64,000 nucleotides of DNA from Pedobacter ginsengisoli (GTDB taxonomy: Bacteria > Bacteroidota > Bacteroidia > Sphingobacteriales > Sphingobacteriaceae): positions 248,001 through 312,000 of the forward strand of contig NZ_JASSYX010000001.1 of assembly GCF_030244015.1 (NCBI RefSeq). Reading direction: 5' to 3'. The position numbers and the translations under genes are program-made. The notes beneath the pieces are model-generated. The model did not search any database. It saw only the letters and a list, made by a program, of their open reading frames with translations, and had not been told where the DNA came from. Positions 33,189 to 48,884 of this stretch are shown here, piece after piece (position 1 is the stretch's first letter; the number at the start of each line of letters is the position of its first letter).

Positions 33189-33246
33189 GTGGTAGCATTT
33201 TAATATGTGGAAAACTTTTTGTGGTAGGATGTGGTAAAAAGTGGTA
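33189..33246 (+). promoter_or_regulatory. MraZ operator-like GTGGTA repeats upstream of mraZ
   Basis: GTGGTA occurs at 33189, 33221, 33231 and 33241, the last three at an exact 10-bp spacing, and the variant GTGGAA occurs at 33207. An inverse copy (TACCAC) is at 33135. MraZ proteins bind short direct repeats at 10-bp spacing before the dcw operon, so these are the likely autoregulatory sites. A TATTTTTA at 33255-33262 may be the -7 element they control. Confidence 0.7.
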
Positions 33247-45765: not shown

Positions 45766-47124
45766 ATGGGCAAAGAAAAATTAACCACTCAGTCTCCAAT
45801 AGTTGTAGGATTGGACATTGGTACCACCAAAATTTGTGTGATTGTGGGCCGCAGAACACAGCATGGGAAAATAGAAGTATTGGGCATTGGTAAGGCTGAA
45901 TCTGCTGGTGTAACAAGAGGCGTAGTATCCAACATTCAAAAAACAGTTCAGGGAATCTCACAGGCAGTAGAACTTGCAAGCGGGCAATCCAACGTTGAAA
46001 TCCGCGTTGTTAATGTAGGGATTGCCGGACAGCATATCAAAAGCTTGCAGCATAGAGGCATTCTGACCAGAAGAGAATTAAATAATGAGATTGGCAAGAA
46101 AGATATTGACAAATTAATAGATGATATGTTTAAACTGGTTATGCCCCCCGGTGAAGAGATCATCCATGTTTTGCCGCAGGAGTTTACAATTGACAATGAG
46201 CCGGGGATTAAAGATCCTATAGGCATGGCGGGCGTCCGTTTAGAAGCCAATTTCCATATCATTTCAGGTCAGGTGACAGCTGTTAAAAATATCATGAGAT
46301 GTGTAACCAATGCCGGGTTGCAAACTCAGGAACTGATACTTGAACCTTTAGCTTCTTCTGAATCGGTGTTGAGTGACGAAGAAAAAGAAGCTGGGGTAGC
46401 TTTGGTTGACATAGGGGGTGGTACAACAGATATTGCAATATTTCATGAGGGAATCATTCGCCATACTGCGGTAATTCCTTTTGGTGGAAATAGTGTTACC
46501 GAGGACATCAGGGAAGGCTGTTCGGTAATGAGAAATCAGGCGGAGCTGCTGAAGACCCGGTTTGGATCTGCGCTTGCTGAAGAGAACAAAGAAAATGAAA
46601 TCATTTGTGTGCCTGGTTTAAGAGGTCGTGAACCTAAGGAGATCTCGGTAAAAAACCTTGCTTATGTGATCCAGGCCCGTATGGAAGAAATCATTGAGCA
46701 CGTATATTATGAGATCAAATCCTCAGGATATGAGAAGAAATTGATTGGCGGTGTAGTGATCACCGGAGGTGGTGCGCTGTTAAAACACCTCTCTCAATTG
46801 GTAGAATATGTAACAGGGCTGGACTGCCGGGTAGGATATCCGAATGAGCATTTATCTAAATATGATGAAATGCCTAAAACAGTTTACGACGACCTGAAAA
46901 GTCCGATGTATGCAACAAGTGTCGGCCTGCTGATCAAGGGAATCCAGAAAGCGGAGGAATTGCTTGAAGAGATGAAACAGCCAGGCGTTTTTGTAGAACG
47001 GCCTAAAGATAAAGAAAAATCGAAACGGTCAGGCGGGGGGCTGTTTGATAAGCTCCTGGCTAAAACCAAGGATTTTATCAAGGATGACATGAATGTAAGT
47101 GATGAGGATTATATAAAACCTTAA
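45766..47124 (+). CDS. ftsA: Cell division protein FtsA
   Basis: A 452-residue actin-like ATPase that tethers FtsZ filaments to the membrane. The phosphate-1 motif VGLDIGTTKICVIVG, the phosphate-2 motif VALVDIGGGTTDIAIF and the adenosine motif IGGVVITGGGALLKHL are present. The 1C (SHS2) domain lies at about 85-165. A basic, glycine-rich C-terminus (SKRSGGGLFDKLLAKTKDF) forms the likely membrane-targeting helix. It is 2 bp after ftsQ, while ftsZ follows only after a 128-bp leader. Confidence 0.95.
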   Translation: MGKEKLTTQSPIVVGLDIGTTKICVIVGRRTQHGKIEVLGIGKAESAGVTRGVVSNIQKTVQGISQAVELASGQSNVEIRVVNVGIAGQHIKSLQHRGILTRRELNNEIGKKDIDKLIDDMFKLVMPPGEEIIHVLPQEFTIDNEPGIKDPIGMAGVRLEANFHIISGQVTAVKNIMRCVTNAGLQTQELILEPLASSESVLSDEEKEAGVALVDIGGGTTDIAIFHEGIIRHTAVIPFGGNSVTEDIREGCSVMRNQAELLKTRFGSALAEENKENEIICVPGLRGREPKEISVKNLAYVIQARMEEIIEHVYYEIKSSGYEKKLIGGVVITGGGALLKHLSQLVEYVTGLDCRVGYPNEHLSKYDEMPKTVYDDLKSPMYATSVGLLIKGIQKAEELLEEMKQPGVFVERPKDKEKSKRSGGGLFDKLLAKTKDFIKDDMNVSDEDYIKP

Positions 47125-47145
47125 TATTTTTCAACAAACTATGAT

Positions 47146-47174
47146 TTTTCCACATTATTAACATTTGTGGAAAA
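47146..47174. promoter_or_regulatory. Inverted pair of DnaA-box-like sequences in the ftsZ leader
   Basis: TTTTCCACA (47146-47154) and TGTGGAAAA (47166-47174) are exact inverted copies separated by 11 bp. Each matches the relaxed DnaA-box consensus TTWTNCACA. They could also form a hairpin in the ftsZ leader. No promoter with a clear -7 element was found here. Confidence 0.5.
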
Positions 47175-47252
47175 CGCCTGTTAAAAATCCTTAATATTAC
47201 ATAGAGAGATGAACAGGTAAAACGAATTTTTAAATAACTGATTCATAAAGAT

Positions 47253-48884
47253 ATGCAGTTCGAAATGTTAAAAGATAAGTCATCAATCATCAAGGTAATT
47301 GGTGTTGGTGGCGGTGGCGGTAATGCGGTGAACCATATGTACCGTCAGGGGATTACAGGTGTTGATTTTATCATTTGTAATACGGATGCTCAGGCACTGG
47401 AATCAAGTCCAATACCTAATAAGGTGCAGCTTGGAGCCAGTTTGACTGAAGGAATGGGTGCGGGATCAATTCCAGAAGTGGGCAAGAATTCGGCGATCGA
47501 GAATATTGACGATATTAAACAGATGCTGGGCAGCACTACTAAGATGTTGTTCATCACGGCCGGAATGGGCGGTGGTACCGGAACAGGTGCGAGCCCGATT
47601 ATTGCTAAAGCTGCTAAAGAACTTGATATACTTACTGTTGCTATAATCACAACGCCTTTTGCCTTTGAGGGTAAAAGACGTAAGATGCAGGCAAATGATG
47701 GTCTGGAGGAGCTAAAAAAATATGTAGATTCCTATCTTGTCATTTCTAATGACAGGTTGCGTGAGATCTTTGGTAACCTGACTTTGGGCTCGGCATTTGC
47801 GCAGGCAGATGATATATTGACCACTGCTGCTAAAGGAATAGCAGAAATCATAACTGTACCTGGCTACATCAATGTTGATTTTAAAGATGTGCGTACAGTG
47901 ATGAAAGAAAGCGGAGTTTCCATCATGGGCAGCTTTGCATGTGAGGGTGAAAGCAGAGCTTTAAATGCTGTTGAAGGGGCCTTGGCCTCACCTTTGTTAA
48001 AAGACAATGAAATTGAAGGCGCACGATACATCCTGTTGAATATCAGCTCCGGACTGCGGGAAGTTACGATGGACGAGGTCACCATTATCACTGATTATAT
48101 CCAGGACAAAGCTGGATTATCTGCTGATTTGATCTGGGGTAACTGTATTGATGAAAATCTTGGTGATAAATTGTCTGTTACCATTATTGCTACCGGATTT
48201 CAAACTAAGGAGCAACGTGAAGAGGATAAGAAAAATGTAAAGAAAATATCCCTGCTTACGCCTGAAGAAGCCCCTTTAATAAGACCTGTTGAGGCTGTTA
48301 ATTCATTTATTGAACAAAAGCCCGAAGTAGCTCTTGAGCCTGTTTTAAAAGCTAAAGAGGAAACCAAACAATCAGACCTTTTTGGTGATCTTTTTAATGG
48401 AAATAGGAATAAATCCGGCCAGGAACCCGAAAATTCTGTGATCAGACATACGCTGATAGAAGAGGAAGCTCCTGTTCAGGAAAATAAACAGGAAACTGGA
48501 TTTGAATTTGAAATTAAGGTTGCTGAAACTGATTTTGTATTTGAAACACCAGCGGAGGTTTTTAATAATGATGCAGAACCCCTGGCAGAAGAGACCATCG
48601 AACCTGGTGCAGATGACGATAAAAGTGACGATTCGATAGAAGATCAGCTTAAAAAGTCGAAGGAAAGAATTTTAAGGTTAAAGGACCTTAGCATGAAATT
48701 AAGAACAAGTAATGGCCTGCAGGAACTGGAAAATGAACCGGCCTACAAACGTAAGCAAATGCAATTGCAGCAGGTTCAGCATTCTTCCGAGTCCCAGGTA
48801 TCAAGGTTTACTTTGAGCAACGATGAAGACGGATCTACAGAGATCAAACCGAATAATTCTTTTTTGCATGATAATGTCGACTAA
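47253..48884 (+). CDS. ftsZ: Cell division GTPase FtsZ
   Basis: A 543-residue tubulin homologue that forms the division ring. The GTP-binding signature GGGTGTGASPI lies near residues 109-119, and the T7 loop NVDFKDVRTVM lies near 208-218. The globular domain ends at about residue 325. A long, acidic, proline-poor linker of about 190 residues then leads to a basic helix and a short C-terminal peptide ending FLHDNVD. The long linker makes it much larger than the roughly 380-residue Proteobacterial FtsZ, as is usual in Bacteroidota. It is the last gene of the dcw operon. Confidence 0.96.
   Translation: MQFEMLKDKSSIIKVIGVGGGGGNAVNHMYRQGITGVDFIICNTDAQALESSPIPNKVQLGASLTEGMGAGSIPEVGKNSAIENIDDIKQMLGSTTKMLFITAGMGGGTGTGASPIIAKAAKELDILTVAIITTPFAFEGKRRKMQANDGLEELKKYVDSYLVISNDRLREIFGNLTLGSAFAQADDILTTAAKGIAEIITVPGYINVDFKDVRTVMKESGVSIMGSFACEGESRALNAVEGALASPLLKDNEIEGARYILLNISSGLREVTMDEVTIITDYIQDKAGLSADLIWGNCIDENLGDKLSVTIIATGFQTKEQREEDKKNVKKISLLTPEEAPLIRPVEAVNSFIEQKPEVALEPVLKAKEETKQSDLFGDLFNGNRNKSGQEPENSVIRHTLIEEEAPVQENKQETGFEFEIKVAETDFVFETPAEVFNNDAEPLAEETIEPGADDDKSDDSIEDQLKKSKERILRLKDLSMKLRTSNGLQELENEPAYKRKQMQLQQVQHSSESQVSRFTLSNDEDGSTEIKPNNSFLHDNVD

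Follow-up and report, generated by a model that had tools for sequence, protein, structure and literature searches.

A probable DnaA-box array upstream of ftsZ in Pedobacter ginsengisoli and other Sphingobacteriaceae

DnaA boxes and the control of ftsZ

Direct activation of ftsZ by DnaA has been described in Caulobacter, at a promoter with two DnaA boxes (accessible parts of PMC3193534; activation also in PMC8203912). The locus studied here resembles that of Caulobacter crescentus in having DnaA boxes directly upstream of ftsZ, and with them a route from the replication initiator to division. However, C. crescentus has two boxes according to PMC3193534, with binding shown, whereas the four or five boxes with near-fixed spacing described here are predicted from sequence; also unlike C. 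crescentus, the array lies inside a gap of the dcw operon and is, among the genomes sampled, limited to the Sphingobacteriaceae. In E. coli, three boxes are found upstream of ftsZ, within ftsQA, which the available text of PMC8203912 presents as shown not to act on ftsZ. These too are located upstream of ftsZ in the dcw cluster, but as far as that text goes they lie in coding sequence and are inactive, whereas the boxes described here form a conserved, phased array in a non-coding leader. The inactive E. coli boxes should nevertheless be regarded as the main warning against over-reading the array.

Autoregulated dnaA promoters and DnaA titration sites contain strong and weak 9-mers in both orientations, either near a promoter or in a dense cluster. 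The mix of boxes is alike here, the target being ftsZ. Strong and weak boxes in both orientations are likewise found at oriC, from which the present array differs in lying away from the GC-skew minimum and before a promoter-like element. No description of DnaA boxes or of ftsZ control in Bacteroidetes or Pedobacter was found in titles and abstract openings, in which subscription journals are sparsely covered. What is new relative to these precedents is the probable control of a division gene by DnaA through a phased array of four or five boxes. The transcriptional coupling of replication initiation to division is an old question, and the array before ftsZ likely represents a direct link between chromosome copying and cell division in soil bacteria of the Pedobacter family. 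As mutations in the boxes would spare both flanking coding regions, this coupling is directly testable in bacteria that are culturable and harmless.

Layout, statistics and conservation of the array

The window, i.e. the whole stretch of DNA that was analysed, comprises 64,000 nt of Pedobacter ginsengisoli (GCF_030244015.1, NZ_JASSYX010000001.1, positions 248,001-312,000), and all coordinates are those of the window unless a genome is named. Neighbouring genes from mraZ to ftsA either touch or overlap, or are separated by no more than 11 bp, so that the ftsZ leader is indeed the only sizeable gap of the dcw operon, as the earlier note had stated. That note had singled out TTTTCCACA and TGTGGAAAA at 47146-47174 as exact inverses with a spacing of 11 bp, both matching TTWTNCACA; the positions, the arms and the spacing were confirmed, and both 9-mers (boxes 2 and 3 in Table 1) fit this consensus exactly. 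The count of two boxes was too low, however: the pair is present, but further boxes at 47128 (TTTTCAACA), 47155 (TTATTAACA) and 47179 (TGTTAAAAA) had been overlooked. The full array consists of four 9-mers (two forward, two reverse) and a weak abutting fifth, together spanning 47128-47187.

Table 1. Features of the ftsZ leader and its flanking genes (window coordinates).
Feature	Position	Strand	Basis or conservation
ftsA, gene upstream of the leader	45766..47124	+	ORF
ftsA-ftsZ intergenic leader, 128 bp	47125..47252	+	ORF ends; aligned with leaders of relatives
Box 1, TTTTCAACA	47128..47136	+	TTTTC[C/A]ACA or TTATC[C/A]ACA in 71/80 array leaders
Box 2, TTTTCCACA, left arm of the pair	47146..47154	+	TTTTCCACA in 65/80 array leaders
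Weak fifth box, TTATTAACA, adjoining box 2	47155..47163	+	AACA end nearly invariant in 58-row alignment
Box 3, TTTTCCACA, right arm of the pair	47166..47174	-	TTTTCCACA in 64/80 array leaders
Box 4, TTTTTAACA (plus-strand reading TGTTAAAAA)	47179..47187	-	most variable box
TAATATTAC, TAnnATTAC element, candidate -7 promoter element of ftsZ	47192..47200	+	in 87/92 leaders
ftsZ, gene downstream of the array	47253..48884	+	ORF

Single TTWTNCACA 9-mers occur at chance level within the window (10 versus 8.42 expected), which makes one box uninformative, whereas the arrangement is informative: TTTTCCACA-N5-25-TGTGGAAAA has one occurrence in the whole genome (4,832,171 bases). Boxes 1 and 4 of this leader have A at position 6 and fit only the relaxed form TTWTN[CA]ACA, of which there are five sites in the 128 bp, compared with a shuffled mean of 0.135; none of 20,000 dinucleotide shuffles reached five. 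Among 96 stretches (1.92 Mb, a few of them overlapping) sampled from this genome and two relatives, G041 and G058, the relaxed four-box array was found at ftsZ leaders only, two of which were covered.

The same pair arrangement was matched by 57 of 60 genomes of the genus (the present one included). The three exceptions are an assembly without an ftsZ match (G021), a genome with one change in box 3 (G059) and one in which box 3 is lost (G056), while the match in G018 runs through a longer arrangement because its box 3 reads TTATCCACA. Positions were obtained for 30 pair-matching genomes, and in 29 of them (again including the present one) the pair lies between ftsA and ftsZ; the thirtieth is G096, a genome from outside the family. 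FtsA itself was matched in all 151 genomes of the family. For a view that does not depend on the motif, 60 of these genomes, covering 23 other genera, were hand-picked before any leader had been seen, and their leaders were taken as the DNA that follows ftsA (or, where the end of ftsA could not be placed, i.e. in L133, L134, L135, L137 and L157, the 200 bp before ftsZ). Together with 29 leaders of the genus found by motif and those of G059, G056 and G018, these make up a set of 92. An array was called when boxes 2 and 3 each scored at least 7/8, by which it is present in 80 of the 92 leaders, in 49 of the 60 from other genera and in 18 of the 24 genera.

Because the placement picks the best pair in each leader, it is biased towards finding one, and the spacing therefore serves as a check. 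Box 2 starts 18 bp after box 1 in 64 of the 80 array leaders and 19 bp after it in 13 (77 together); the spacer between boxes 2 and 3 is 11 bp in 67, 10 bp in 12 and 12 bp in one; and box 4 starts 13 bp after box 3 in 77. Counted without placement, in 58 of the 60 leaders from other genera (two that were too short being omitted), 23 leaders had four boxes, 17 had three, 7 had five, another 7 had two and 4 had none, and shuffles of all 90 leaders reached three boxes in 3 of 9,000 cases and never more. Conservation of the pair upstream of ftsZ in related genomes, which had been put forward as a check, thus extends family-wide and beyond close relatives. Pair 2-3 is best conserved and the outer boxes vary more, box 4 reading TTTTCAACA in 21, TTTTCCACA in 18, TTTTACACA in 12 and TTTTTAACA in 11 of the 80 array leaders.

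The full array is absent from 12 of the 92 leaders. Five have the forward pair alone (L107, L108 and L109 of genus g44, L116 of g47 and L154 of g60), six contain no array boxes (two each from g42 and g50, one each from g48 and g62), and the last is that of G056, without box 3. The leaders of g44 and g47 are natural half-arrays, in which the two forward boxes and TAnnATTAC are kept while boxes 3 and 4 are gone. With 18 of 24 genera having the array and the others having lost half or all of it, the family is a good natural system for the coupling question.

Outside the family, the pair was matched in one of the 39 genomes that represent other families of Bacteroidia (G096, with another spacing and away from ftsA and ftsZ), although FtsZ was matched in all 39. 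Of their leaders, taken as the 250 bp before ftsZ (shorter for L178), the best 30 of 39 comprise 27 without a TT[AT]TC[AC]ACA box and three with one. A pattern scan of a species-level genome collection returned at least 119 stretches, 80 of which were listed; among the matches listed, all 80 lie at ftsA/ftsZ (75 with both genes, four with ftsA only and one with ftsZ only), under the titles Pedobacter, Parapedobacter, Olivibacter, Desertivirga, Daejeonella and Arcticibacter, as well as MAGs titled merely Sphingobacteriales, Sphingobacteriaceae or Bacteroidetes. From this distribution the array looks like a trait of the Sphingobacteriaceae that arose within the family and was lost, or reduced to half, in some lineages.

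Probable DnaA sites and a candidate promoter

The consensus of the DnaA box is TTWTNCACA, which is degenerate at positions 3 (W) and 5 (N). Of the 320 box cells in the 80 array leaders, all but 3 have T or A at position 3; box 4 shows every base at position 5, and the terminal ACA hardly varies across the boxes. Position 6 is C or A, the A being found in roughly every second copy of boxes 1 and 4, unlike the consensus. The boxes vary independently within TTWTN[C/A]ACA, which is close to the degeneracy of the DnaA box. By the Bac_DnaA_C model the genome encodes one DnaA, bearing GGRDHSTV in the DNA-reading part of the protein, and the leader of its own gene contains TTATCAACA and TGTTGATAA. Likewise, TTATCAACA or TTATCCACA (the latter being the highest-affinity DnaA box; PMC8287927) occurs together with TGTTGATAA in the dnaA leaders of G003, G041 and G058, and those of G241 (two genes), G127 and G233 have at least one box each. 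The reading of the array as DnaA boxes is thus well supported by comparison, if indirectly, and the DnaA reading proposed for the pair is borne out in part: the sites are conserved family-wide before ftsZ, but the pair is just the centre of an array of four or five boxes that is phased to a promoter-like element.

Two further observations concern the replication genes themselves. G241 (CP060294.1, L317/L318) has two full-length dnaA genes, encoding 503 and 502 aa, with TTATCCACA in each leader, whereas the six other genomes searched have one dnaA each. Upstream of dnaX (L369-L375), a possible additional target, TTTTC[CA]ACA is present in 7 of 15 genomes compared, doubled in G003; in this comparison it was not found before dnaX of the present genome.

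The promoter-like element, TAnnATTAC, is present in 87 of the 92 leaders (letter shuffles: 156 of 4,600), namely in 79 of the 80 with the array and in 8 of the 12 without it. When the start of box 4 is set 13 bp beyond that of box 3, a gap of 5 bp separates this box from the element in 76 of the 79 leaders and one of 4 bp in the other 3, including the present one, while the distance from the element to the ATG varies from 20 to 146 bp. An element that is tightly tied to the boxes, loosely tied to the gene and persists after loss of the boxes fits a core promoter with its operator. Compared with TAHHTTTG, which the available part of PMC6847099 gives as the -7 consensus of F. johnsoniae, the element has T, A, T and T in common and differs in the remainder; TAnnATTAC is therefore put forward as a candidate -7 promoter element of ftsZ. 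It was also considered as a DnaA-trio, i.e. an unwinding element. However, it is kept in the 8 of 12 leaders mentioned above, of which L101, L102 and L117 are boxless, and this retention without boxes makes a promoter element the likelier reading.

Taken together, we consider it likely, on the comparative evidence, that 47128-47187 is a DnaA operator (four boxes, or five with the weak one) of an ftsZ-specific promoter, the -7 element of which would probably be TAATATTAC. The best reading is that this operator is specific to the Sphingobacteriaceae and would work like that of Caulobacter ftsZ, with a different build. Binding of DnaA would begin at the strong central pair (boxes 2 and 3) and extend to the weaker flanking boxes with increasing active DnaA, giving a graded occupancy in which the core is filled at modest DnaA levels and the outer boxes at high levels of active DnaA only. 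If transcription starts a few bases past the element, box 4 would fall between -33 and -7 and box 3 at about -33, with boxes 2 and 1 further upstream. Since boxes 3 and 4 are located just upstream of the candidate -7 element, i.e. at the site of RNA polymerase, their occupancy would alter ftsZ transcription: DnaA on box 4 would be expected to hinder the polymerase, whereas the upstream boxes could help it, and ftsZ transcription would thereby be tied to the DnaA level through the cell cycle. We lean towards a dual mode, with the core boxes being permissive or activating and full occupancy being repressing.

A more far-reaching version of DnaA control, which we regard as rather doubtful, is that the array forms a cooperative DnaA switch with a strong centre and weak flanks, origin-like in layout and at the same time a titration site, so that ftsZ expression would count replication rounds and act as a replication-to-division timer. 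As ftsZ lies far from the origin, passage of the replication fork would double the sites and reset their occupancy by DnaA. If true, this would be a hard-wired timer unlike the two-box Caulobacter promoter.

Other readings of the leader

The array could also be a DnaA titration site, a sink that tunes replication initiation, with its placement before ftsZ being incidental and transcription little affected. It would fit a sink that the relaxed four-box array was found nowhere else in the 1.92 Mb sampled and that the strict pair is unique in its genome, as well as that the boxes upstream of E. coli ftsZ play no role in ftsZ transcription (PMC8203912, in the text available). However, a sink needs no phasing, whereas the array is phased to the promoter-like element while the distance to the gene is free, and titration by itself seems unlikely.

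Somewhat harder to accept is that a regulator other than DnaA recognises the 9-mers and controls ftsZ. The C/A at position 6 of boxes 1 and 4 departs from TTWTNCACA, and the origin candidate indicated by GC skew (see below) lacks a cluster of canonical boxes, both of which would be in line with another protein. Against this, the mixed orientations at distances of 18, 20 and 13 bp suit a monomer on asymmetric 9-mers over a dimer, the same kind of site is present before dnaA in the seven genomes read, and the freedom at positions 3 (W) and 5 (N) is that of the DnaA box. Such a regulator is thus improbable.

The earlier note had also allowed for the arms forming an mRNA hairpin. In the transcript of the ftsZ leader, such a stem could be regulatory or act as an attenuator. 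The predicted fold of the present leader does pair the arms (-20.2 kcal/mol, z -2.29), as is expected of an inverted repeat, and read-through transcription from ftsA would carry the stem. Pairing was compared over 58 distinct leaders of equal spacing (59 minus one duplicate), in which the inner stem beats most letter shuffles (10-16 of 500 reach it), an outcome that relatedness alone could produce. Two cells are compensated in these leaders (L118 and L139) versus 12 unpaired; departures break the pair in 7 of the 8 cases at position 3 and in 4 of the 5 at position 6, and the 80 array leaders contain 27 broken, 4 wobble and 5 compensated cases. For boxes 1 and 4, pairing does not exceed that of shuffled letters (494 of 500 shuffles being at least as good) and covariation is absent, and at gathering thresholds Rfam gave no matches within the window. 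As most substitutions in the arms have no compensating partner, the hairpin is disfavoured and appears very unlikely.

Several boxes in both orientations beside AT-rich DNA also look like an origin of replication, and the leader was therefore considered, for its box density, as oriC or part of it. In the closed genome of G058 (6,446,024 bp), which was covered by 60 samples of 20 kb concentrated around the switch, the cumulative GC skew reaches its minimum near 4.96 Mb and its maximum near 1.3-1.7 Mb; some samples on each side have a sign contrary to this profile. The ftsZ gene is located at 3.517 Mb, about 1.4 Mb from the minimum, which means that the ftsZ leader is not oriC. The coarser profile of G041 (closed, 6,404,843 bp; 20 samples, with the minimum placed roughly) agrees: its minimum falls at ~0-0.9 Mb, and ftsZ, at 5.236 Mb, is no less than 1.17 Mb distant. 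An origin at ftsZ is thus ruled out by the skew of both genomes for all practical purposes.

Near the skew minimum of G058 lies the gap between nadB and nadA (L359, G058:C1:4975144-4975580; in the present genome G000:C4:781451-781815, L362). It is conserved non-coding DNA, with matches, a few of which are short or weak, in 9 of the 12 genomes searched, and on these grounds it is a candidate origin. In this gap, the best origin candidate, a canonical DnaA-box cluster was not found, and the DnaA box of the Sphingobacteriaceae can therefore not be read from the origin.

The operator of MraZ consists of three or more direct repeats of GTGG with a 10-bp period. With mraZ in the same operon and GTGG inside box 3 (and inside box 4 in part of the family), MraZ operators were considered for the ftsZ leader and rejected as next to impossible, since the leader has no 10-bp direct repeat, box 4 is often without GTGG, and boxes 18, 20 and 13 bp apart in two orientations have a geometry unlike such a repeat. 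The mraZ leader, on the other hand, holds GTGG at 33221, 33231 and 33241 (33221-33244), a 10-bp direct repeat that resembles an MraZ operator, together with a single TGTGGAAAA at 33206, the latter being a point in favour of the MraZ reading.
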